DNA from: Parietichytrium sp. I65-24A
Taxonomy: Eukaryota > Sar > Bigyra > Thraustochytrida > Thraustochytriidae
Assembly: GCA_012862575.1 (NCBI GenBank)
Contig: BLSF01000020.1
Coordinates: 124,001-188,000, forward strand
DNA: 64,000 bases
Direction of reading: 5' to 3'
Shown: positions 28,238-64,000 of the stretch, piece by piece
How positions within the stretch are numbered: position 1 is the first letter of the stretch
Layout: each line of letters begins with the position of its first letter
The notes under the pieces: model-generated
What the model saw: the letters and a program-made list of their open reading frames with translations, nothing else
The model's database searches: none
Told to the model about the DNA's origin: nothing
Made by a program: the position numbers and the translations under genes

Positions 28238-29681
28238 CTGCCGGCGATGCAAGCTTTTGGCAGCCGGCTTGAGAGCTGCATGGATGGATCATCCGCTGAT
28301 TTCTGTGGCAGTAAGCAACTGCGGCGCTGGAAAAGAGGGCTGCGCGGCTGCCTCGAAACTGTTATTGGGGCATTTTTAGTCTGTTATTACCTTCGCAACC
28401 TGAATGTGTTAGAATGAAAATGAAAAAGAATCTCTTCGATACTTGCCTGCTTCCATGTAGATTGGATAGGTCATCAGTTGGCCGATATCAGTTCCTTCAT
28501 GACTCGCAAGTTCTTCACAGCGCAAAAGGTACCAGACGCGTGTGTGCCCGCGGCGCGCCTCGTCGTATAAAGCATAAAGCTTTGCACTGTGAAGACAATG
28601 ACTCACCGATGCACCACAAAGTCTTCGTTGGAATCGCCAATTCATGATCTGCACAGTTTGAAAGACGTAGCGTCCCAATGTTTCCCAATCCCGTTTTCGC
28701 TCGGCTCACTGGGCGACGAAGACTTTTCATTCTCTTTGAAACACGGGCATCGAGAAGCAAGGCTGAGACACACCGGCCAGGGAACGTATTTCGGAATCCT
28801 TTGTGTATTTGTTCTCTCAATCACAAAAACAACTAGAGAGCTAGAGATAAGCAGCCCAGATCGACTGCCCAGTCCATTGCTCAACGAGCCATGACTGCTG
28901 TATTTCCACGAAAGAGTAGTGCATACTCTCGCATTCCGCCCTTGCTGTTGATCTTTATATAATCTATAATTGCTTTGCCAGCTTGCTTCTTTCTGGAGAT
29001 ATCCGGGTTCTCAATCGAGAACCCCACCGAGACAATTGGCGCAGAACCCAAATTTCAAAACGCGTCTTCTGAAAGCTGGGAATTCTGGGAATTCTGAATT
29101 CTGAGTTCTGATCATTGTTGGTTCCTGGAACTTGAAAAACGAACACCCGGGTTCTTCGCAAAGAACCAAGATTCGAGTGGAGGCGGAGAACCCTCACGAC
29201 TCCCTCTTCTTCTTCACCCATCATGCATCATGTCGTCGTGAGACTTCTCCCTAGAAGCCGCACTAGGATACGATGGCACACTTTCCATTCCCCACACAAG
29301 AGTCAAAGCACTGGTGGAGCCCGGCCTTTGGATACTATCGTTTTACCTATTTTCGGTTATCAGCCTCCAGCCTCTCCAGTGTGGGAGGCGGAAATTATTC
29401 AGGCGGAGCTTCTCAGGGCCTCGGCCTCCGCCTCACAAGCTTTTCGGAAAGTTTTCTTTCCCTTTCACCGCCCAACACTACAGTCGCAGCTACTCCACAG
29501 TAGTACCCCTCTGGCGGAAGAATTTGTGTCGTAGCAGGCCTATATGTCGGGACTACCATCCCTTCTCACACCCCACCTTACCCGAATCGGTACCTAAAGC
29601 TTAGTACTCGTAAGTCCCACTTTCATCCTACCATCCTGCGGGAGTACATAGACCTCTACCACCTTAAACTCTAGCACTCCA
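28238..29681. other. Spacer before the assembly gap
   Basis: About 1.4 kb without a supported gene. GAATTCT-type repeats of period 7 and 9 lie near 29079-29110. The last 80 bases on the minus strand keep an open frame into the gap that reads VLPQDGRMKVGLTSTKL before its stop. This could be the 3' end of a coding or repeat element hidden in the gap, but it is too short to name. Confidence 0.35.
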
Positions 29682-30034
29682 NNNNNNNNNNNNNNNNNNN
29701 NNNNNNNNNNNNNNNNNNNNNNNNNNNNNNNNNNNNNNNNNNNNNNNNNNNNNNNNNNNNNNNNNNNNNNNNNNNNNNNNNNNNNNNNNNNNNNNNNNNN
29801 NNNNNNNNNNNNNNNNNNNNNNNNNNNNNNNNNNNNNNNNNNNNNNNNNNNNNNNNNNNNNNNNNNNNNNNNNNNNNNNNNNNNNNNNNNNNNNNNNNNN
29901 NNNNNNNNNNNNNNNNNNNNNNNNNNNNNNNNNNNNNNNNNNNNNNNNNNNNNNNNNNNNNNNNNNNNNNNNNNNNNNNNNNNNNNNNNNNNNNNNNNNN
30001 NNNNNNNNNNNNNNNNNNNNNNNNNNNNNNNNNN
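29682..30034. other. Assembly gap (353 N)
   Basis: A run of N. It abuts a dense microsatellite on the right, which probably caused the gap. Confidence 1.
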
Positions 30035-30082
30035 ACGGACGGACGGACGGACGGACGGACGGACGGACGGACGGACGACGAC

Positions 30083-30126: not shown

Positions 30127-30572
30127 TGGTGGGTTCCCGCAGCGGCAGTGGGTTCTTGGTTCTTGGTTCTTGCTCGCACCGTGCGCGTCGCCCCTTCCCC
30201 GCCGCTCCAGCGCGCATCGAGGGTCGCGTCCGACGGCATTGCTCCTGGAGGTCGTGTGAGTGCTGCGCCGTCTCGCTAGAATTCGCGGTTTGCCAGCTTG
30301 CTCTGGCGCAGCGCTCTCACGCGCGTGATCATCCTTCTGTCTCTCCTTATTGCATTCTTGCTTTTTGTTTTCTTGCTCAGTGAATAGTCTGCATATTACT
30401 CGCCTCGCGTGTGTTTTGAGAGTGGCGTGCGTCGGTGCGTAGGTGCGTGTAGGTGGGTGGGGTATATTGATTGATACATTCATTCCACAATTCCACACGG
30501 TGCAATTAGATTTTGGTATTTTATATATATAATTCGGGGCGGGAAACGGACTCAAGCCCCGCGAACAAGAGG
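30125..30572. other. 5' region of the receiver-PAS gene
   Basis: About 450 bases between the microsatellite and the ATG at 30573. A TATATATA stretch at about 30521-30530 lies 45 bases before the ATG. No gene is seen. Confidence 0.35.
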
Positions 30573-32153
30573 ATGGATGCATTGGAAAATGCGGTGCAGG
30601 CGCTGACTGTGCTGAGAGATGCCCTGCATGAGGATGGCCCCGAAAAGGGCCTGGACACGCAGCTGAGCACCCAGCTAAAAGAGCTGATGCAGGAGTGCGC
30701 GACAGCATTAGCAGGCAGAGTGAGCGTGAAAAGTGGCGGAATGAAAGATGGCGAAAATGCGGCAGCTCGAGCGAGCACGCCGCAACAGGAGAAGGAGATG
30801 GACATCAATGTTCTCATCGTGGACGATGACAAGACTGCAGCAACCATCATTTCTCGACAGCTGAGCAAGCTCAAGATTCGCAACCAATTTGTGCTGAGTG
30901 GGCAAGAGGCGCTGGACAAGTTGTACGAAGACCCGCAATCGTTCCACTTGGTGCTTTGCGATGTGAATATGCCCGGCCTCGACGGCGGAGCGGTGCTGAA
31001 GCGGGTGTTGTCGAATCCTCAGCTCAAATATATTCCTATTGTAATGGTAAGCTCTGATGAAGATGTCAACAAGGCCAAGGAGCTTGTCCAAGCAGGCGCC
31101 AAAGACTACATCGTGAAACCAGTTCGCCAGGTGTCTCTTGTGAGTCTTTCGTTCAAAGTCCGCGGATGGCAACAGGTGCATAGCACCAAACACTTATCTG
31201 CTCTGTACGAAATGTCGTCGGCCCTGTTGGTCCATTTGAAAGTTATTTTGGGGAAAGGCGATGAGCCAGACCCATCCACTGCCACTCCTGCCGAGGAATT
31301 GTCCTTCTCTCGTGCTAACGTTTCCCATGCCTTTATTCAAGCCGCGTCGCTTCCGATGATGGAGCTGCTCGGCATCACCAAGAGCGATGTCGCGAGTGGA
31401 CATGTCGACGTGCTTGAGTTTGTTGTTGCGGATGACAAGGATGTGCTCTGCCACCAGCTCCGACAATCGATTTACGAAGATATGAACGACACGACGTCGC
31501 GTCACAAAGGCCAGCGCCTAGTTTGGCGTTGGATAGACTCAAAGGGCAGCAACGTTCCAGTTGTAGGCTCCTGGTCGCGCATTGGCGACGTTGGCGACGA
31601 TGAGGTTATTCTCGAGAGCACTTCCCTCCTACCTTCACTGATGCTCAAGCGAGAGAAAGAGCGCCGAGACTTGGCGGAGCGCGAAGCAAAAGAGGCGCTC
31701 CGCGAGTCCACAAAACTACGCGAGGATCTTCTCATTACAAGGCGTTCAGACCAGACAATGCGAAACGAGCTGGCTTCTCTCATGGGCGAAATGTCAGAGT
31801 TTTCCAAGATGATTACTGAAAATCCTCATGTTCTGACGTGGCGCTTTCGAGTTCTGGATGGCAGAATCGAATATGTAAGCCCAAAGTCCTGCGAGGCTGT
31901 GCTTGGGTATCAACCACAGGAACTGCTGGGGAAAATGAACAGCGATACCCTTTTTCCAGAAGACCTTGAAAAAGGTCAAACGCATATTACGTCGATTCAC
32001 GGATCAGTACGCTTCCGGCGAGTGCACAAATCTGGGAAAACTGTCTGGGTGGAGTCAAGAGCGTATGCGTGGTGGGACGAGCAGCACAGTGTGATCATCG
32101 TTACAGAATATGATATTACGGCTCTGATCCTCAACGGCTTGGCTCCCAAGTAA
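30573..32153 (+). CDS. Receiver-PAS-PAS signalling protein without output domain
   Basis: A 526-residue protein from the ATG at 30573. A short helical N-terminus is followed by a CheY-like receiver at about residues 78-190. It has the acidic pocket D84-D86 (LIVDDDK), the phospho-acceptor D130 (LVLCDVNMPGLDG), S160 (MVSSDED) and K182 (YIVKPVR), so all catalytic residues are present. A PAS-like region spans about 250-345, a heptad-rich coiled coil about 358-410, and a clear PAS domain about 412-516 (ITENPHVLTWRF, CEAVLGYQPQELLGK, FPEDLEKG, GKTVWVESRAYAW). There is no kinase, cyclase or DNA-binding domain. It probably takes phosphate from a hybrid histidine kinase and signals through PAS-mediated partner binding. 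It may be part of a light or redox pathway, but the PAS ligand cannot be deduced. Confidence 0.9.
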   Translation: MDALENAVQALTVLRDALHEDGPEKGLDTQLSTQLKELMQECATALAGRVSVKSGGMKDGENAAARASTPQQEKEMDINVLIVDDDKTAATIISRQLSKLKIRNQFVLSGQEALDKLYEDPQSFHLVLCDVNMPGLDGGAVLKRVLSNPQLKYIPIVMVSSDEDVNKAKELVQAGAKDYIVKPVRQVSLVSLSFKVRGWQQVHSTKHLSALYEMSSALLVHLKVILGKGDEPDPSTATPAEELSFSRANVSHAFIQAASLPMMELLGITKSDVASGHVDVLEFVVADDKDVLCHQLRQSIYEDMNDTTSRHKGQRLVWRWIDSKGSNVPVVGSWSRIGDVGDDEVILESTSLLPSLMLKREKERRDLAEREAKEALRESTKLREDLLITRRSDQTMRNELASLMGEMSEFSKMITENPHVLTWRFRVLDGRIEYVSPKSCEAVLGYQPQELLGKMNSDTLFPEDLEKGQTHITSIHGSVRFRRVHKSGKTVWVESRAYAWWDEQHSVIIVTEYDITALILNGLAPK

Positions 32154-36149: not shown

Positions 36150-39100
36150 ATGGCGTTGTCAAGGAGGAACCCACAGAAGCGGCTGGTTGAGCCGCTCTAT
36201 GAGATGCAGGATGTTCCGCCTTGCTCAAAAGATCTCAGAGATTCGTGCTTAGTCAAGGTCGAGGACAGGGATCTTTGGATTAAAATGCTTCCCGAGCTGC
36301 TTCTGCTGTGTAATGAGGCCTCGTCAAGGTTTGAGACCCGCTGCAAGAGCGCAATAGAGGCACTCCGCAAGTTGTCTGGTTCGATGGAGCCCAAGATTCC
36401 GCCTAATTTGCTCCCCATACACGATGGTAAAGCTCTCGGTTTGGAATACATCACCGATAGGATGGATCTGGATGACCCACTGCATGGTTATGTCGTGCGC
36501 ACTGCGAAAGAAGGCTGGATACAAGGCTTCATCTCTGTAACGACCTTTACGTCTTGGCAGCGCTGGTTTCGCTGGGACAGCTTAGTTGATGAGGCTGGCG
36601 TGCTCATGTTTGACACTGATGGCGCAGGCGTAGACGCTCTTCACTCTTTAGGACACCCTGATCCTCGCGAGACGGATAAGCCCGAACTGGGGTGGTGGAG
36701 CACTCGAATTGTGGATGCGGATGGCTCTTTGAGCGCATCTCTCAATAGCGAGATCAGAGATGGCGATCCAGAGGGCGAAGGTGTGATTTGGCCGCACATT
36801 GCGGAACTCTCTCTTTTGGGTGGGATCGGTTGCGGTTCCTTCCTCGTCAAGCTAATTATCGAAGAACTGGAAAACAGTGATTCGCCATACAATTATTTGG
36901 TCATGCAAGCCACAGAAAACGCAGTGAGCTTCTATGAACAGCACGGATTTGTGCGCGTTGGAGCCGTGGCCCGATATTTTGACAAGACCAAAAAGTCGGA
37001 CGAAGCGAGCACTTCCTCGAACCAGGCCTCTGACATGGAGGTTGATGAGCATGGGCCACTTCCTACGCCTCCTGTCCAACTAGGCGTTGCTCCTCGAGTG
37101 AGACGGCGTCGCGCAGAGTCTTCCAACACTGACAAAACGTCGGATGCTACAGGCCTTTCTCCTATTAACGAGCTTCTACCTCGCTCAGTTCGCCGAAATG
37201 GACAATCGGAGGAGGACTCCACCAAACCGCCCAAGTGCGGCAATGAACTGGAAAAGAGTGCTGTAGACGCCAGATCGGCCATGTCTCAACCTGAGATTCC
37301 CAACACGCCATTTATTTGCGGTGCTTCAAGTCCTTTCAAATGGCACAAAGTGAATGAGAAGGAAACCCCGACTCTGAAAGAGTTGGCGGAACTCATGGGT
37401 GTGCAGGCTTGCGACATATCCTTCATGAATCGCCGTATGTATGGAGAATTGAGCGAGGGCGACCAGCTGATCGATGGCGTAATGTTGCGAATTCCTGTTT
37501 TCCCAACCTTTTATGATGGCATATCGCACTCATACAAACACACCACAAAAACTGCACTTGCTTCAGAAACCGCTCCGATGGTCACATGTTCGGCGTTGCC
37601 TGGGGAGGCGTCCGCCAATGGGCTATGGTACTGTGCAAGGGATAATCAGACACCTCGACAAATTGCTGCCCAACTGGGCATAGAGACTCGTGACTTGATT
37701 GACGCGAATGCAAAGTTGTATCCGGATATGACGTCTTATTCCCCCCTACACGAGATGACAATCATGCGAGTCCCCAATGTCTCTGCAAAGCCAATGCAAA
37801 ACCTAGACCCTAAACTCGTAGAAGAGCTTGAGCGCGCGAGGTCAAGCTGGGGCTGGGGATCAGACGACGCAAAACAATCAGGTCTTTCTGGGGTAATGAC
37901 CTATCGGCATTGGGCCTTCTCAGATGACCCGGTCGATTTTGCAGTGTCGAGCTACATGATGGTCCGGCCCTTGAAAAAGAGGAAGCCGGCTGCGGCGACA
38001 GTATCGGTGCCGCCGCCGCCGCTGACGGCGCAACCAATCTTGAGTGCTGAAGATTCAGAGTCTCCGGTCGCAACCCTTGCTCGTGATCGTCTCAAAGGTG
38101 TGGATGTTGAGGTCCCAGTGTTTGCTTACGGAGGAAGTGCGCCGGGGCTGATCTCAGAGCAGCGGTCGCTTTTAAACGCGTCGGCGGAGGAGGAGGAAGA
38201 AGAGGAAGAGGGTTCAGAAGAGTCCCCTGAAATTAAGCCGGAGACTGGCAACCCAGCGGAAGAGTCCAAGCAAGGTTCCGCGGCAGTGAGCGAGGTAAAG
38301 GTAGAGAAAGCGATAGAGGATCAAGAGCCTGTTGTGGAAACACACCAAACGACACCTTCCCCGGATCCTCAGCTAGAAGCAGACGACCCGAACAGGCGCA
38401 TGACCAGATCGTCGAGACCGCGGAGGCAAGCAGCCCAGCGAGCCGGGACGACGTCCTCAGAGCCAACTGAGCCAAAGACTAGAGCCGGGAGTATCGCCAC
38501 CGAGTCAGAAGCCCCGCCTGACAAAGTCGTCTCCAGCCCGGAACCAGAGCCGCCAAAGACGTACCTTCCAGGTTATCCGCAGCAAGTAAAGGTGATTCTA
38601 CACTGCCAAAGTATTCGTCGCATGAGAACTTTTGACGAAGCGCATCGCATGGGTCCTTTGCAAGCAGCCGTAGCATTTGTGGAAGGTGCAAAGCTGCCCA
38701 AAGGATCCAGAAAGAAGAGGGGCCGCTCAGGGTCGGACCTTTCAAGCACCGCGGCTTCCATAACAGGCTCTGTTAGAGAGTCGAATATCAACGGTAGCGA
38801 CGGGATTGAATTGCGCAGTAAGAGATTTGTTGCACTAGACAGCAAGACGAATCTTGTGCAGGTGTTCGTCCGCAACGCCACTCTGGTTGGTCCACGCATG
38901 GTAGCGAGAATTGATGCACCACTGAAATGCAAGGTGTTGGACGAGGACAAGAGCATCGAAGTCCTGAAACCAGCGAAGCCGCGGCCACCGTGGAACGCGT
39001 ACATGTGCTACGGGATGTCTCGTCGCGTGGAGCTGAAACGAACTGATCCAAGCATGAGCTTTTCGGCCGTGAGCAGTCTCATTGGCTCTGAATGGCGCGA

Positions 39101-39713
39101 TTTCTCCGAGGAAAAGAAGAGACCTTATCATCTCATGGCGGAAGAAGAGAAATCTCGCTATAAGACAGAGATGGAAGACTATCAAAATGCACTTAAAGCT
39201 CTCGGCCTAGCCGACGAGGAGCCAGGAGCAACTGACAAATCTGTTAATCCAAGCTCTTTGGTGAATCAGGTTGTCCGCTTGTGCCGCAAGCCGAGTCATA
39301 AAGATCGGCAGCGATTTCTTCTCGGTTCTAAACTTGTTGCTGCAGCCGCTGGCCAGCCTCTCGGAGGCGACTTACAAGAGAACGCTGGCGATGTACGAAG
39401 TCTTTGCGAAGAGCACCTGCAGGTGTCCAAATTTTGCGCGGAAAGACCGTACCGCGATGAGGAATGCGCAGAATACTACTTCGTGCTCACCTACATTCCG
39501 GACCTCTACTGGTGCAGACTTTGCCCTCTGCAGTCAGTTGGAATGTTTGATAAGCGTATTCCGCGTCATTACGGCCGAACGAAGTGGATGCTAGTTCCGG
39601 AAGGGCAAGCGATTGAGATCGACGTGTCTGCTTCGAGATGTACGGCAGTGGCGTCGATTGCGGTAAGAAAAACCCAGGACGCAGACCAGGAAGAATGGGA
39701 CATCATGGACTAG
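36150..39713 (+). CDS. GNAT-LysM-LysM-HMG-box protein, 1187 residues
   Basis: ATG at 36150. Residues about 120-280 look like a GNAT acetyltransferase: substrate strands, then LSLLGGIGCGSFLVKLIIEE (a degenerate acetyl-CoA loop region) and VSFYEQHGFVRVG, the classic last strand-helix pair. Two LysM-like modules follow, at about 397-450 (HKVNEKETPTLKELAELMG ... GVMLRIP) and 491-543 (YCARDNQTPRQIAAQLG ... MTIMRVP). Then come acidic and Ser/Pro-rich linkers (Glu run near 680) and an HMG box at about 942-1015 (KPRPPWNAYMCYG, WRDFSEEKKRPYHLMAEEEKSRY). The C-terminal 170 residues are folded-looking but unknown. HMG boxes bind DNA, so a nuclear, chromatin-linked acetyltransferase is inferred. LysM in such a protein is odd, since LysM usually binds N-acetylglucosamine polymers outside the cell or in bacteria. 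No signal peptide is present. Confidence 0.85.
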   Translation: MALSRRNPQKRLVEPLYEMQDVPPCSKDLRDSCLVKVEDRDLWIKMLPELLLLCNEASSRFETRCKSAIEALRKLSGSMEPKIPPNLLPIHDGKALGLEYITDRMDLDDPLHGYVVRTAKEGWIQGFISVTTFTSWQRWFRWDSLVDEAGVLMFDTDGAGVDALHSLGHPDPRETDKPELGWWSTRIVDADGSLSASLNSEIRDGDPEGEGVIWPHIAELSLLGGIGCGSFLVKLIIEELENSDSPYNYLVMQATENAVSFYEQHGFVRVGAVARYFDKTKKSDEASTSSNQASDMEVDEHGPLPTPPVQLGVAPRVRRRRAESSNTDKTSDATGLSPINELLPRSVRRNGQSEEDSTKPPKCGNELEKSAVDARSAMSQPEIPNTPFICGASSPFKWHKVNEKETPTLKELAELMGVQACDISFMNRRMYGELSEGDQLIDGVMLRIPVFPTFYDGISHSYKHTTKTALASETAPMVTCSALPGEASANGLWYCARDNQTPRQIAAQLGIETRDLIDANAKLYPDMTSYSPLHEMTIMRVPNVSAKPMQNLDPKLVEELERARSSWGWGSDDAKQSGLSGVMTYRHWAFSDDPVDFAVSSYMMVRPLKKRKPAAATVSVPPPPLTAQPILSAEDSESPVATLARDRLKGVDVEVPVFAYGGSAPGLISEQRSLLNASAEEEEEEEEGSEESPEIKPETGNPAEESKQGSAAVSEVKVEKAIEDQEPVVETHQTTPSPDPQLEADDPNRRMTRSSRPRRQAAQRAGTTSSEPTEPKTRAGSIATESEAPPDKVVSSPEPEPPKTYLPGYPQQVKVILHCQSIRRMRTFDEAHRMGPLQAAVAFVEGAKLPKGSRKKRGRSGSDLSSTAASITGSVRESNINGSDGIELRSKRFVALDSKTNLVQVFVRNATLVGPRMVARIDAPLKCKVLDEDKSIEVLKPAKPRPPWNAYMCYGMSRRVELKRTDPSMSFSAVSSLIGSEWRDFSEEKKRPYHLMAEEEKSRYKTEMEDYQNALKALGLADEEPGATDKSVNPSSLVNQVVRLCRKPSHKDRQRFLLGSKLVAAAAGQPLGGDLQENAGDVRSLCEEHLQVSKFCAERPYRDEECAEYYFVLTYIPDLYWCRLCPLQSVGMFDKRIPRHYGRTKWMLVPEGQAIEIDVSASRCTAVASIAVRKTQDADQEEWDIMD

Positions 39714-54921: not shown

Positions 54922-55296
54922 AATCTCCGCAAGCTGAGAGTGGAAGTGAAGGAAGGGTTGAGCGAACGAGAAGCTCTCTCTCTCCTCTCTCCTCTCTCCT
55001 CTCTCTGTCTGTGTGTGGAAAACGTTTGGAGCTTTGCTTTGGCAGGTTCAAGTGAACGGAGATTGACATTGGAGCAGTGAAGAGGGGCCGTGTTTTGACT
55101 TGTTTGTATGTGTTTCAAGGCGTGTTGTGTGTCTTTCGCTGTCTGTGGCCGATTTAGAGAGGAGGTTGTGGCCGAGGGTCAGAGTGAAACGGAAAAGCTC
55201 GATTGCGAGTCCTGCTGACGCGGGCCAACCGGCCATTGAACAGTAGCGCTTCTCCGATCTGATCCGGACTATATTACTCAGACAGGACGCCGGAAC

Positions 55297-58200
55297 ATGC
55301 GTCAAAGAGGCTCAGTGCGGAGAGCACTATGGGATGTCGTGGTTCAGCTTTTCATTTGGGCTCATTTGGCTGGACTGGTACACGCTGATACGATGGTATT
55401 GGTTGTTCCTCCTGGCTCAGGGCGTGGCGGATCCGCTTTGGACGAGCAACCTGCGTTGGCAGTTGTCAATAGCCTGGGCAATCTGATCAATACCACCTCC
55501 CATCCCTCGTATGCAGGCAAGACATTCTTTGTCACCGCGAGACTCAAGACGGGAACGCTGCCAGATGAAGCCCGTTATGCAGTGCTGAGGCAAGAAGGCT
55601 TGGACTCACTGACGGAGGAGCCATCGACAGAAATCATTGATGGGTGGGCAAATTTTTCTGGGCTATACATTAACGAGATCGCGGAGGGGTTCGTGCTGGA
55701 GTTCACTGCTTTGGAATCCCCTTTTGGCAGCGCCGAAGCAGACCCAATTGACGTGACGTTGGGAGACCCCTATGAACTGAGCGTCATACAACAGCCGGGA
55801 ACCGCAAAAGGAGGACTGGATTTTCGGCCGCAGCCAATCGTTGGCGTCGTGGACCGTGGTGGCAATCCGATTACGTGGCTTAACGAAGGCGACGTCACTG
55901 TTGACATTTGCTTGCCAGAGCATGACAGTGAATGCGTAGCAAATCCAGGAGGATCTTTGTCATTAATTGACACGTCAAGCAGTTTTACGGTGGAAATATT
56001 CGAAGGCGTGGCACAGTTTACGGGATTAAACATCGACCGCGCTGGTTTTCCATATCGGCTGAGGTTTAATTCATCGTACTCTGGCGTGTCGCAACAGATC
56101 ATTCTCAGCGCGAATTTTACGGTAGGCATCGGACAGGCGTCCACGATTAAGATAGAAACTGCTGTTGCAGGGGCTCGTGGAGGAGTGCCATTTCAGACCC
56201 AGCCAATCGTATCTGTAAGAGATGCTGGTGGGAACGTCGTTACAGAGGATGCGTTCGTGCCTCCTTATTCTGAAATGCAACTTTATTTGAGCAACAACCC
56301 CACCAAGGCTATTATCTCTTCGAACCTCTATCCCTCTCTCTCCCTTGGATTAGTGGGCGGTTATGCGTATGGGACGGACTTTGAAATCGACCTGATCGGC
56401 CAGGGGTACCAGATTGGGTTCACAGCGGTGATGAGGACTGCAGATGGCGAAGAGTACCAAGTATACACTGAGACAGACCCTTTTGATGTAGAGATCGGAG
56501 ACCCTACTGCATTGAAGGTTCTTCGCTCAGTAGGTGGCGCTTTTGCCGGCGGATTGCCGTTTTTCTACCAGCCAAACGTTGCTGTCGTGGATGGGGGTGG
56601 CAACATTTTCGAAACCGAAAGCGAAGCTCTCATGAGCGCGGCTTTGACAGTGAACCCGGACAACAGGCCGCTAGAAGGCGCCAAAGAGGTGCAATTGTTT
56701 AGAGGTGTCGCTAGATTCAGATCACTGAAGATAACGTTCGCTGCCAAAGGATACGAGATGACATTTACAACCACCGTTAATGGCGTACCCCTCTCCACAG
56801 CCATCACATTTGACGTCCTCCCATCGTCAGAGTTTAGTGTTTTCTCCGAGGACGCTAGCAGCGACGATTACTTGGGCGAGTCGGTGTCTATTTATGACGG
56901 TACCGCAGTCGTTGGTGCACCGATGAAGCATAGGTATAAAAACGAGATTCAGCGGCTTTCTACGGTGAGCCCGTCAATATCCAGAGTCGTTCAGGAAGTG
57001 CAACTTCTCACGCTCTCGAGTACTCACGTGAACGAAATTCAACAGATCTCCACCTGTGGTGCTGGAGATGGTTCCATTCTTGGTTACTTTACCATCTCTT
57101 ACGATGAGTACACATCACGGCCAATAAGATATGATGTTCACAGTACCGTCCTTCAAAATTATTTGGAGGCTGATCTGAAAGTTGTTGGAAAGCTGAGTAT
57201 AGAGAAGAGCACGGCCTCTGATTGTGAGGCTGGGAACGCGTATACATGGGCGATCACATTTACGACCAAGGAGGGGGCCATTAATCAGCTCGTCGCAAAC
57301 ACGACAGGTGACGATTCGGGCAATTTCCTTTACCAGTTCACTCAGTACCCAAGTTTGGAGGCCGCAAGCACTGCAAGCAATGTGACCCTGCAGATTGACA
57401 CCATTCAGGACTCTCCAGTCATAGGGGGATCCTTCACTCTTTTGGTTGGCGGCGATGGGTCAACGCGCGGCTCCGACATTGTACCTGTAGAGACCGCGCC
57501 ATTGCAGCACGATGCGACAGGGACTGAGGTGAGACTTGCAATCGAGGCGGCCATGCAGAGTGTCCAATCCTCGCTCTTTCAGTCCACTTATTCAAGCTTT
57601 ACTCTTGTCAACGTGTATCGAACAAATGTAGATAGTCAGGGAGGGTACTCTTGGGCTATAACATTTCCTGCCAAAGCAGAGACGGTTTACACATGGAAGG
57701 CTTTGGAGGTCAATACAACTGAGTTAACTGGAAATCTGGTGACAGCAACGGTTTCAAAAACTAAGATAGGCCAAGCTCCAATGCGCGGCAATTTCCGGCT
57801 CTGGTTCCAGGGTGCAGGTCCGACAGAACCAATATCCTACTCGGAGCCGGCATCAACCTTTGCAACGAAGCTGGAGGCTCTTCCAACGGTAACGAGCGTG
57901 GATGTGACAAGAACTTCTAATTCTGACAATGGGTATACGTGGACCATCACGTTTTTGGAGACGATGTCCAAAACGGCGCATGGCTACACCAAGGACGAAA
58001 TCCGGAATTTGGAGCCTCTAAAGGCCGACACTTACTTACTTGGGGGCACTGACGCCCATATACTGGTGGAATACGTTTATGCAGTGGATGACATGGACAC
58101 TCTGTACTGCGAAGCCACACTGGATAACTTGCCAGCAGTGTACGATGAAAATGTGGAACCAGAGACCTGCGAGCAGCTTGAACTGGACGCTTTCCTGTTC

Positions 58201-61200
58201 GAAGCCGACTTCCCAGCAATGGGAAAGTTCGGAAATCAGACAGGAGCCGCGTATGTCTTTTACTTGGACACGGACGGCGCACAATGGAGACAAGGAGCAA
58301 AGTTGGAATCCGCTGACTCAAAGCCTTATGACAGGTTCGGCTGGTCCGTAGCCTATGACAACAGCACTACCGTCTCCAGTACCAGGACTGGGGTGGCAGT
58401 CATTGGCGCACCATATGCTGCATATGAAGGGCTCGTTGAGCAGCAAACGATAGCATGCGACGGGGATAGTGGCACGCTCGGATTTAAGTTCAGGTCCAAG
58501 TACAGCTCGTTCGGGGCATATGACATGACGGCTCCGGAATTGAAGACCATTTTGAAGTCAACAACGTCCATTACCGAAGTCAACGTCGTGTTCTACCGAG
58601 GAGAAGTCGATGAGGCAAATGCTCTCGCCGATGACAGTGGGGACGGGCTGTGCCAGGCGGGAACTGTCGCGGAGAATCTGAAGATAATAGCATTGGTCAC
58701 ATTTGTAAACCCATACACCGGAGACTTGCCAATGATCGAACCAGTCGTAGTGGACCCGATCCTGGCAGTAAATGGTCTCTTGTTTGACTCCACGGCATCC
58801 TTAAATAACAATGGGGTTCGGCTCGGAACCGTTACTGTGAGCGAGCACCGGAAGGGTACCATTGGCGCAAAAAGCTCAGGTGACGTAGGGTACAAGGTGG
58901 GAGCTGCCTATGTGTTCCTCCCACCAGGCGCCGACAGTAGCTTGGAGACCCCGATTGGAGACTGGGACTTGAACGCCAAGCTGTTTGCTTCCGACAAAGT
59001 TGCCGGGGACGAGTTTGGCTACTCGGTCGCAGTGTTTCAGGATACCATTATCATTGGAGCCCCCGGAAACAGCTTTGATGCCAACGGATCAAATGAATTG
59101 CCCGGGGCAGGCGCAGTGTATGTCTTCACCAGAGACGGCAAATACGGGGGGGAGGTGGGAGTTTGGACGCAAAGCCAGAAGCTAGTTGCAAACGATCGAG
59201 AAGCTGGCGATAGATTTGGCACAGTAATTGCGCTGAGGGACAACACTATTGTGTGCTCGGCCCCGGAGAAATCAGACGGCAAAGGTCGAGTGTATGTATT
59301 CAAAAGAGTGTCCATTCTCATGAGGTTCACGTTTGATCAGGCAATAAGCACACAGTATGCTGTTGCAGGCGACCATTTCGGGAGCTCGCTTGCTTTGGAC
59401 CGTAACACGCTGATTATTGCAGCCGAACAAAGTGACGGCCCCGACGAAAGCGAAGACGATCCGGTTTACATGGCCGGAGCTGAACTCGCACAGGGATATT
59501 CTGACCCCTTTCGGAAGGGTGTGGGGTTGGAGAAGTGCGGCAGAGTGTATGTGTATACACGCCAAACCTATGCGAATGCCTATCAGCTACTCCAACGCTT
59601 GTACCCACGAACTCCTCGAGCTTTCGCTCGATTTGGGCACGGGGTGGCAGTCGAGAAAGACGTTCTTCTAGTCACTGAGCAGGAAGAATTTCGAGGGGAG
59701 AGGAGCTCGAGGCGATTTGTTTATGAGGTGCAGTCCAGGCTCGGCAACGAGTCTGATACCACCACGCAGCTCGGAAATCTATTTGCTCTTACTTGGAACA
59801 CGGAGTACACTGGCGAGCAAGTCACTGAAATAGTCCGCCAGTCGATCTACACCGCGTCTGCTTACGACAGTGATGCTGCTTCTCGTGGCTTGCCCAAGCA
59901 AACCACGCAGCGAAAGGTATTCGAGAGTGTGCAAACGAAATGGATGAAAGCCAATGTTTCTGCTGCAGATATGCAAACCCGCCTGAGCGATGACTTTGAT
60001 GCCGGAGACGTGATCGTGACGCGAACGGATGCAGACACAAACAATGGATATATCTGGAGAATCACTTTTGTGGATATTGACCCTGTTGGTGGAAGAGTAT
60101 CGATGATTCCGCAGCTAGGGGTAGAAAACAAGCTCTCTGGAGGCGGGGAAATAGAAGTCCGACTTGTTCAGTCCCCCGCGGTCTTCGTGCTAGGCCAAAC
60201 TCACATGTTCAAGCGAAAGTCGACAACATTTCATCAACACGCAATATTGAGACCAGAGATTCCGCAAGATGCTGACCTCTTTGGGACCTCGGTATCTATG
60301 CACGGACGCTATGCAGTCGTTGGGGCCCCGAATCGTGATGCCATTGAGATCTCGGGGTCGAACAGTGGGAGCGCGCTGTTCTTTGACATGGGGTTTGCGA
60401 ACCTAGCATTCGCCTCTCAGGGCTACGCTGTCATGGAAGGGGATGGTGCTGCAAGCATAAAGGTCTCCAGATGCGACCCTAACTGTATGGTTGGTTTTGC
60501 TCCTACTCCGGGCCCTCAAACGAGCGACTTTGCCGAAGATGAGGCAAATATGATTCAGTACTTGCTGGTGGACGGAACTGCTCGCTCGCGCGGGGACTGC
60601 ACGTTGGACAGTTACGCGACAGATGAGTGCCTTTGGTTTTCTGCGGATAGTCACGATTGGGACTCATCTCGTACAATTCCTCAGGCATTCTTGAACATCG
60701 ATCACTACAACCCTGTGAGAATAAGCGGCGGTTACACAACACCGTTTTACAGCACTGAAGACTCAAAGGCTGATTCGGCATCTGCTCGAGCTGCCTCAGC
60801 CTTCAGCAGGTTTGACTATAGAGGTCAGTCGGACTATGTCCCAGATGGGGGCCAAATTGAATTCAACGCCAATGTCCTGGAGGCAGAGTTTCAAGTCTTG
60901 ATTACCGACGATGCCGTTTACGAAGCGCCAGATGAAACGGTGAACCTTTTGCTTACTACGTCGGGAATGCGGCCGGTTCCAGGAGGAGACTATTGGGCAA
61001 CTTTAACCATTGAAGATGACGGGGATAGCGGAGTCGGCGTTCAAGAAACGTTCAACAAGCTTTATGCCACAAATCCCACGCATTCTGCTCGGTTCGGATC
61101 TGCTACTTCTACCTACGGAGACATTGCAGCAGTGAGTGCCCCGTTTGAGGCGACGACATTTAGTGATGCTGGCGCTGTGTATCTGTACCGCAGAACTAGT

Positions 61201-64000
61201 TTGGGGTACTGGGAGCTCGAACAGCGGATCACCTCTCCAGATGGCTGTTCATCAGGAGCGTTTGGAACCTCCTTGGAAGTGAAGAGCCTCTCGCCTTTTC
61301 GACTTATAGTTGGGGCACCTGGACAGACTCCGCCTGCTGCGTATATATTCTACCGAGTGCCCACCAATTCGTCTCACGCGTACCCTTCCCAAGGCCCTGG
61401 AACCTGGGTTTTGGAAGCCACATTCACTTTGGAGGCGGATATGGTGGCAGACTCCCGCACATCGACAAATGAGCACCATCCGCTCGACCATCAAGCTTTC
61501 TTTGGAGGGCCGAATGGCGTGTCGATCACAACAGAGTACGCAGTCGTCGGAGCGAAAGGGCTGGAGGCCGCATTTGTGTACCGAATGTACAGTCAGTCAA
61601 ATTGGTACTTCTTGCAGATGCTTAAAGCCTCTGATTATGAGGACGCCGAGTACCCGCCAAACTCTAAGCATCGCAGAGTTTTTGTGAAGAGGTCTCTTTT
61701 CGGCTCCAGCGTCGCAATCGACGATGATACCCTTGTCATTGGGGCGACCTTGGCGCACAATGACCGCTATGTTAACCCAAATCGCAAAACGGATCAGGAC
61801 GTGGGGCTTTTGTGCGCGGATACAGGTTTTGCGAGCTCGGAAGTGGAGCCTCAGCTGTACCAATGGGAGCTGAACGAATTTGGCAACATATACCTCTGGA
61901 GTGCTGCTGACAATGAGACAAGGGCGGAATTTTTCGGTGGCAGCGATGCTTTTCAAAACATCGTTTCTTGCGAAGAGTACGATGCCTTTCACCTTGTGAT
62001 ACGATCGAACGGAATCCCGAACCACGCGTACGGTGCATTTCCGTTCACGGAAGATACCCTCCGCGAAGACCAGCCCGACAATCCGAACGGTCTTGAATCC
62101 CAAGAGCTCGCCATCCGCCTGTCAAGGTTTCCCAACATCACGAATATCAACCCAGTCTCCGTCATTGAAGACCGATCCATGCTTCCGCAAGGAATTATCG
62201 GTGTTGCTCTTAATGGTGTCCCCTTTTACAACCCATACGATGAATATGGAGACGACACTGTGGACGTGGAGTCAATTGGATACAGCGGTTCGGTGCCGGA
62301 TCTCTGTAACGGAGTCGCAGTTGAACCATCAATGTATGCGTATCGTTCAAACCCAGCGTGCTTGTATGATCAACCAGTTGAATGGAACACTTCCATACCG
62401 AGATTGAAGTCCGGCAAGCTATATCCCTTTGTCTTCTCTGTGGAAGATGGGCTGACAAATCCAAATCCGGGCCAACGGTCTCCGAAGCTTGGCTACGCAC
62501 TAGACGGATTTGCAATTTACGGCCCATTTGCGGAAGGCGGTGATCTGCCAACAGATTTGGATGCTTGCAACGGTAGGTTCGACTCTGAGCTTCAAACCTA
62601 CGTTTACCATATCACTCCGTGGAAAGCGCCATACCTCATTGGGTGTTTTCGAGGAACTTTGCAAATTGAGACGCCAGTGAAGACGAATGTGTTCCCGGAG
62701 TTCATGAAGGGGCAGTCGAACGTTCCAAGAGATCTAGGATACTTCGGCCACGGCGCAGTATACGTTTTCATTAGCAGACCACTGTCCATTAGTCCCGTGG
62801 CCAGTACTCTGAAAGGTATGTACGTTGGAGTGCATGATAATCCATTCAATGGCTTTGCATCTGGATATGGGTGGATAGAACAGACAATCCTGCTTGCGTC
62901 GGATGGCGATCGGGCTGATCGATTCGGGCATTCTGTCGCTCTTGATGGAGACCACCTCCTGATCGGGGCTTACTTTGACCGTTCGAGCCCTAGGTCCACT
63001 TGGGACTTTGAGACGGGTTCTTTGATCGGCTGGACACGCACTGGGACTGCGTTTGATTACCAGCCCACGTACGGTGACAATCCTTCATTTCAGGAATGTA
63101 TACGGAGACTATAATATTGAGACCTTCCGAGACTTTGAGGGGAAAATTAACGTTGCCACTTCCAATCCTCTGGGTAAGAAAATTGCGAGATACGACTTCA
63201 TTGAAGGTTACGACAAGGTCATTCTCTATGGCCCACAAAGCGAGCACGTGGACCACCCAATATCGGTCTTGATAGAACCAGACGAACTTCGGACGCCGGA
63301 GTATTCTTTTCGGCCCGGAAGAGCACAAAAGGCGAAACTTCAGGGCAAATTTTTCGTAGCAACCTTCGAAAAGCGAACGGCTACCTACGATAATACAACG
63401 AAAACATTTGTCCCAGACTATGAGGAAGGCAGTGTACAAGGAGACGAGCCTCAAGGAACGCTGACTTCCGACCCGTTCCCAATATACGGAACAAAGATCC
63501 AGTTTCTCATTGGAGGCGGATGCAACATCGAGAATGAGTACGTTGAACTCCTTATTGATGGTGTGTCTGTGCGCAAAACGACAGGGCGTTGTGACGAAGC
63601 GATGAGGGAGGTGACCTGGGATGTAAGCTCGTACAAGTTACAGTCTGGTATAATTCGTATTGTTGATGCTTCGTCTACGAAATGGGGCCACATCAACGTG
63701 GATGATTTCCGTTTTAACTGGGACCTGAACTATTTGTATCGAGCAACGACTCGTTCGGATGACGGGACCGGATCGCGTCAAGCTGGCGGGCCGAAAGGGT
63801 ACGCTGGAGAGGCCGCTTCTGGAGCGGCCTATGCGTTTTGGCGAAAATCAGAGACATCAGACGAGCCTTGCGAAACATCCTGTAATGTTACCGGATGCTT
63901 CTACACAAGTACCCCAGTAGACCGATGGGGTTGCGTTTGGGAGGAGCAGCAAAAGCTGCAAGCCTCTGACCGCCGAGGAGGTGAGCTTTTTGGTTGGTCC
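55297..64000 (+). CDS. Giant secreted FG-GAP/YHYH/Calx-beta protein, runs off window
   Basis: ATG at 55297 and a signal peptide (VVVQLFIWAHLAGLVHA). The frame is open for 2605 codons to 63114, and the homologous reading resumes in the +1 frame at 63095 and stays open to 64000. Domains: four Ig-like repeats at about 30-515 with the motif GGxPFxxQPxVxVxDxGGN; many FG-GAP repeats (DRFGWSVAYD, DEFGYSVAVFQ, VVGAP/IIGAP, AVYVF); several embedded modules ending in GYTWTITF or AYTWAITF; a Calx-beta-like block at about 1850-1920; and a YHYH domain near 2398-2450 (DGFAIYGPF ... YVYHITP). The start of an FETGSLIGWTRTGTAFDYQP module follows near 2565. Such beta-propeller proteins are surface or matrix adhesion proteins. 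The frame change near 63090 is either a sequencing error or a lesion; no intron fits the space. Its C-terminus, and any membrane anchor, lie beyond the window. Confidence 0.85.

Follow-up and report, generated by a model that had tools for sequence, protein, structure and literature searches.

Introduction

LysM domains are best known as modules that bind cell-wall sugars outside cells. A published account describes recognition of GlcNAc-X-GlcNAc by LysM with a minimal motif that forms a contact surface of four sugars and, for the LysM domain of AtlA, a 60- to 80-fold decrease in affinity for GlcNAc5 upon the substitutions T13A, L14A and I39A (PMC4083421). In the same account the structural elements of the AtlA domain follow the order T4-V8, L14-Y21, V25-N32 and G42-V47, and helix 2 ends in a buried Asn, N32 (PMC4083421). 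A protein-binding LysM domain in a transcription-linked protein is also already in print. The LysM domain of NCOA7 is required for binding the protein G3BP1, as judged by truncation (PMC12350179), and human NCOA7 is listed in a review as a nuclear localised transcriptional coregulator (PMC5614904). On the side of the acetyltransferases, the available text on the oomycete enzymes distinguishes Gcn5, Elp3 and Hpa2 types and mentions no HMG-box fusion (PMC5112689).

Here we describe an open reading frame in which a GNAT-like acetyltransferase region is followed by two LysM-like modules and an HMG box. In a literature search, this order was described in no title or abstract start among the matches listed, and no paper joining LysM, O-GlcNAc, nuclear and HMG box was found.

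The open frame and its surroundings

The protein is encoded on the forward strand at 36150..39713 of the 64-kb window, by which we mean the whole stretch of DNA that was analyzed. The frame runs for 1187 codons without interruption, giving a single product of 1187 amino acids. Its coding character was scored with a codon-usage measure trained on five other long ORFs of the window and applied to consecutive 60-codon windows that cover codons 1-1140, the final 48 codons (stop included) being left out. The score was above zero in each of the 19 windows, and the mean codon score of 0.147 was the sole positive value among the six reading frames, the other five ranging from −0.17 to −0.435. The continuous frame proposed in the first-pass annotation is thus borne out, and the combination in one protein of two LysM-fold modules with an acetyltransferase-like domain and an HMG box looks real. 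The same annotation noted the lack of a signal peptide, and neither a signal peptide nor a membrane segment was apparent from Kyte-Doolittle hydropathy, the highest 19-residue mean being 1.65 over the full length and 0.61 for windows that start within residues 1-60.

Between and beside the domains the protein contains three basic clusters that resemble nuclear localisation signals at the level of the motif: RVRRRR (aa 316-321, 37095..37112, +), PLKKRK (aa 607-612, 37968..37985, +) and SRKKRGR (aa 853-859, 38706..38726, +). A run of eight Glu (aa 680-687, 38187..38210, +) occurs in a linker with a high content of E, S, A and P. The C-terminal region (aa 1020-1187, 39207..39710, +) belongs to no recognised family; it gave no match in Pfam or among PDB sequences and no relative in viral contigs. 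The several basic clusters, together with the lack of an apparent signal peptide, favor a nuclear reading, and judged from these motifs a nuclear location and role of the protein appear likely.

The search for relatives was made with exact peptide patterns or against prokaryote and phage records, and its outcome therefore says little about protists. With five protein segments and the module alignment as queries no relative was confirmed in viral contigs at E 1e-3, and at E up to 1 there was no match to the whole protein in phage records or to the modules in plasmid records. GNAT and LysM-like stretches similar to these may also occur in other stramenopile-type genomes, a possibility that was given no weight.

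The window looks eukaryotic because the neighbors include a eukaryotic topoisomerase I, a seipin and a calponin-homology protein. The latter (PF00307; 40195-41001, −) adjoins the gene studied here and carries three GSKG(I/V)MDK repeats at its C-terminus. The seipin homologue (PF06775; 47989-50001, −) has a low-complexity N-terminal half and lies in a GC-rich stretch (0.604). At 30510-32153 (+) a response-regulator receiver domain is fused to PAS, and at 55240-63114 (+) an open frame of 2624 amino acids contains FG-GAP_2 stretches, eight in all, together with a YHYH region and a Calx-beta match that stays below the cut-off; it may encode a large protein that is secreted or located at the surface. 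An assembly gap, seen as a run of N at about 29680-30060, has GGAC-type and CT repeats next to it. The 64-kb window gave no match to tRNA genes or Rfam families.

The HMG box

The most clear-cut domain of the protein is the HMG box at aa 944-1011 (38979..39182, +). In the whole protein this region matched PF00505 with an E-value of 3.5e-16 and 59.8 bits, well above the cut-off of 25.4 bits, and we regard the assignment as firm at the sequence level; the first-pass description of a canonical HMG box is upheld. A search of PDB sequences matched the same residues to HMGB1, NHP6A and SOX proteins, and both SRY and HMGB1 box B could be aligned to the box with zero gaps. We take N949, M952 and F971 to be at positions known as DNA contacts. 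N949 occupies the position of an Asn in SRY, M952 that of a Met in the NHP1 homologue 2lhj, and F971 that of a Phe in HMGB1 box A. N949 and F971 form a mixed pattern, combining an SRY-like Asn with a Phe like that of HMGB1 box A. Judged from its family, the box would be expected to bind and bend DNA.

The GNAT-like region

The GNAT-like acetyltransferase region covers aa 100-290 (36447..37019, +), with a Pfam match to PF13673 confined to aa 226-272. The score was 20.8 bits when the whole protein was searched, which is below the cut-off of 23.6, but 24.1 bits, just above it, when the segment was searched alone. The GNAT-like fold proposed earlier is supported as a domain reading, and we consider the match weak but credible as far as sequence comparison goes. 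Using phmmer, the conserved half was found to resemble PaiA (1tiq, E 0.031) and NAA50 (6yzz, E 0.14). Searching genome contigs with aa 1-554 as the query gave two bacterial genes that match aa 205-268 (37% identity) and aa 207-268 (35%), and both of these genes read as GNAT.

The acetyl-CoA loop motif of GNAT enzymes is R/Q-x-x-G-x-G/A. The region studied here has a phosphate-loop-like GGIGCG at aa 224-229 and NAVSFYEQHGF at aa 257-267 (+). When the loop was aligned by eye with RQQGIG and RKQGIG of the two bacterial relatives, the GxG element was found to be retained, with G224 at the position where Arg or Gln is expected. These features can be read in two ways. The GNAT domain could be inactive, so that the protein would be an architectural HMG-box factor in which the GNAT and LysM parts serve as structural or docking folds. 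The marginal score, the loop Gly where the bacterial relatives have Arg in the alignment by eye, and the long stretch before the conserved half in which Pfam finds no match at all fit such a protein, which we nevertheless regard as unlikely, if far from negligible, because the good preservation of the GxG loop and of the NAVSFYEQHGF motif suggests an intact cofactor site. We favor a GNAT-like domain that, if active, would use acetyl-CoA to acetylate a nearby protein.

Sequence evidence for the LysM-like modules

The two LysM-like modules span aa 397-449 (module 1; 37338..37496, +) and aa 492-542 (module 2; 37623..37775, +). They resemble each other, with a BLASTP E-value of 3e-7 in a single comparison and 13 of 58 positions identical. 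Neither gave a match to PF01476 even at E 10 in a Pfam/HMMER search, the filters of which drop most weak matches, and for this reason they are filed here as a LysM-like fold and not as members of PF01476. For direct comparison an alignment of 49 LysM sequences was used, taken from loci of 22 bacterial genomes with PF01476. With a plain HMM of this bacterial alignment module 2 scored 8.2 bits, a value reached by none of 2000 shuffles, and module 1 scored 3.3 bits, which six of 2000 shuffles reached. When the HMM was run over the 927 six-frame ORFs of the window of at least 40 amino acids, the ORF described here ranked only third with an E-value of 1.7; scoring by sequence alone thus does not settle the LysM assignment. 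In the reverse direction, a profile of the two modules found no LysM chain among PDB sequences at E up to 10, and returned three matches, two bacterial regulators and an RNA polymerase subunit, with E-values of 0.65 to 1. Within the window an HMM of the two modules matched only the ORF they come from, the next E-value being 0.79.

Profile-profile comparison gave a stronger signal. Aligned with the bacterial LysM profile by hhalign, the module pair reached a probability of 92.3 in an alignment of 44 columns that runs from one end to the other; 300 column shuffles of the pair peaked at 19.2, so that none of them reached the observed value. Taken singly, module 1 gave 79.96 and module 2 gave 78.65. 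In the global mode of hhalign the pair fell to 62.3, module 1 to 26.9 and module 2 to 15.0. As a second control 559 tiles were compared with the same profile, 446 of them from eight other proteins of the window and 113 from the protein itself. Ten tiles exceeded a probability of 20, all of them overlapping the modules, and the best tile elsewhere stayed at 13.8. The profile-profile similarity of the modules to LysM thus exceeds both the shuffle and the tile controls. Furthermore, N427 of module 1 and N520 of module 2 align with N32 of AtlA, the Asn that ends helix 2.

Predicted fold of the modules

For structure prediction by AlphaFold2, residues 489-545 were used as input with module 1 as the sole other row, so that the alignment held zero outside LysM sequences. 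The model of module 2 had a pLDDT of 90.2 and a pTM of 0.74, and all five models reached a pLDDT of at least 89.7. The elements of the model are a strand at 4-7, helices at 14-21 and 25-31 and a strand at 50-53, which is the beta-alpha-alpha-beta arrangement that the first-pass annotation had predicted for a LysM fold and the same strand-helix-helix-strand order as in AtlA. A Foldseek comparison with the PDB gave 143 matches at E up to 10, and of the 50 matches listed 17 have LysM in the title. The match to the AtlA LysM domain (2mkx) had TM scores of 0.72 (by query) and 0.79 (by target). Across the PDB matches the lowest E-value was 0.032 and none of the 143 reached 0.001, which we attribute to the model having only 57 residues. 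LysM proteins were also among the matches in a library of viral structures, with a best E-value of 0.0075.

The prediction makes a strong case for a LysM fold of module 2. The only model covering module 1 is a whole-protein AlphaFold2 prediction made from one sequence, which had a mean pLDDT of 34.8 and in which even the HMG box was unresolved; for module 1 we infer the fold. Of the two LysM modules named in the first-pass annotation, what failed is the match to the PF01476 profile at E up to 10, and what stands is the profile-profile similarity above the controls together with the predicted fold of module 2.

Five of the 50 PDB matches listed for module 2 are mitoribosomal CJ chains (6sg9_CJ, 7pub_CJ, 7pua_CJ, 6hiw_CJ and 9hny_CJ; TM by query 0.63-0.70), four of them titled Trypanosoma brucei. 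Judged from this match of models, they are possibly another intracellular LysM fold; a literature search found no paper on a mitoribosomal LysM in Trypanosoma brucei.

Sugar site and possible ligands

The positions of the AtlA affinity hot spots T13, L14 and I39 are occupied in module 2 by T, P and L. In module 1 they are T, L and L in its own alignment or T, P and L in the alignment of the pair; a two-residue insert accounts for the difference between the two at the L14 position. In both modules the I39 position was assigned by counting back from the final Pro. The distance from the helix-2 Asn to this Pro is 21 residues in both modules, compared to 16 in the bacterial consensus, which points to an insert common to both modules in the loop next to the groove in which sugar is usually bound. 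At the level of sequence, the sugar-contact positions are not clearly lost.

O-GlcNAc is one sugar, and a GlcNAc polymer is not known from the nucleus. LysM binding requires a chain of sugars (PMC4083421), which makes it unlikely that the modules read single O-GlcNAc. The suggestion that they read O-GlcNAc or have changed function is thus not supported in its first part, given the four-sugar minimal motif, and a changed function is more likely.

The modules might still bind GlcNAc-containing glycans, in which case the protein would couple intracellular glycan sensing to acetylation at chromatin. This would agree with the residues kept at the hot spots (T, L/P and L in module 1; T, P and L in module 2), but it is hard to reconcile with the Pro at the L14 position of module 2, with the insert beside the groove in both modules and with the lack of a known nuclear GlcNAc polymer. 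The use of four sugars in a row by LysM, as given in the AtlA study (PMC4083421), counts against it as well, and we consider glycan binding improbable. A specific arrangement in which the modules would read an intracellular GlcNAc-containing ligand, with this reading coupled to acetylation at the DNA that the HMG box holds, seems highly improbable. Finally, although the sequence searches by Pfam, by HMMER across the window and in the reverse direction did not succeed, we give hardly any credence to the view that the modules have a different small fold or resemble LysM by chance, in view of the model at pLDDT 90 (five models at least 89.7), the PDB fold matches to LysM and the shuffle and tile controls.

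Proposed role

Taken together, we consider it reasonably probable that the locus encodes a nuclear, chromatin-associated GNAT-like protein in which the two LysM-fold modules act as intracellular protein-interaction modules rather than as glycan readers. The modules would most likely hold a protein partner or the GNAT region. By analogy, the protein binding of the NCOA7 LysM domain lends support to this interaction reading. It also takes away some of the surprise of the present case: the earlier view that a LysM domain would not be expected in a nuclear protein was only partly right, since published work on NCOA7 already pairs a protein-binding LysM domain with a report of nuclear localisation (PMC12350179, PMC5614904).

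The significance of the locus lies in a divergent LysM fold that is missed by the standard profile and that, in an apparently nuclear protein, accompanies a GNAT domain and an HMG box. Should this order prove to be conserved across protists, LysM would have been recruited into chromatin and overlooked by Pfam-based surveys; the same order in several lineages would mean a family, and a single occurrence a fusion. Next to NCOA7, where LysM is needed for protein binding, the protein offers a second place to ask if LysM works without glycans.

Comparison with known systems

With the described LysM domains (PF01476, CBM50; AtlA 2mkx) the modules share the predicted fold (module 2), the helix-2 Asn (both modules) and a T at the T13 position. 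They differ from these domains in missing the Pfam model and in a loop after helix 2 that is five residues longer than in the bacterial consensus, and they occur without an apparent signal peptide, joined to GNAT and HMG parts. The acetyltransferase-like region has the conserved half with the GxG loop and the FYEQHGF motif in common with PaiA (1tiq) and NAA50 (6yzz), whereas the sequence match to these enzymes is weak and the loop Arg or Gln is replaced by Gly. A full HMG box is shared with HMGB1, NHP-type and SRY/SOX proteins, but here it is a single box within a protein of 1187 amino acids that also contains GNAT and LysM folds. With NCOA7 the common feature is a LysM domain within a non-secreted multidomain protein tied to transcription; NCOA7 combines it with GRAM, an oestrogen-receptor-binding region and TLDc, and not with a GNAT domain or an HMG box.
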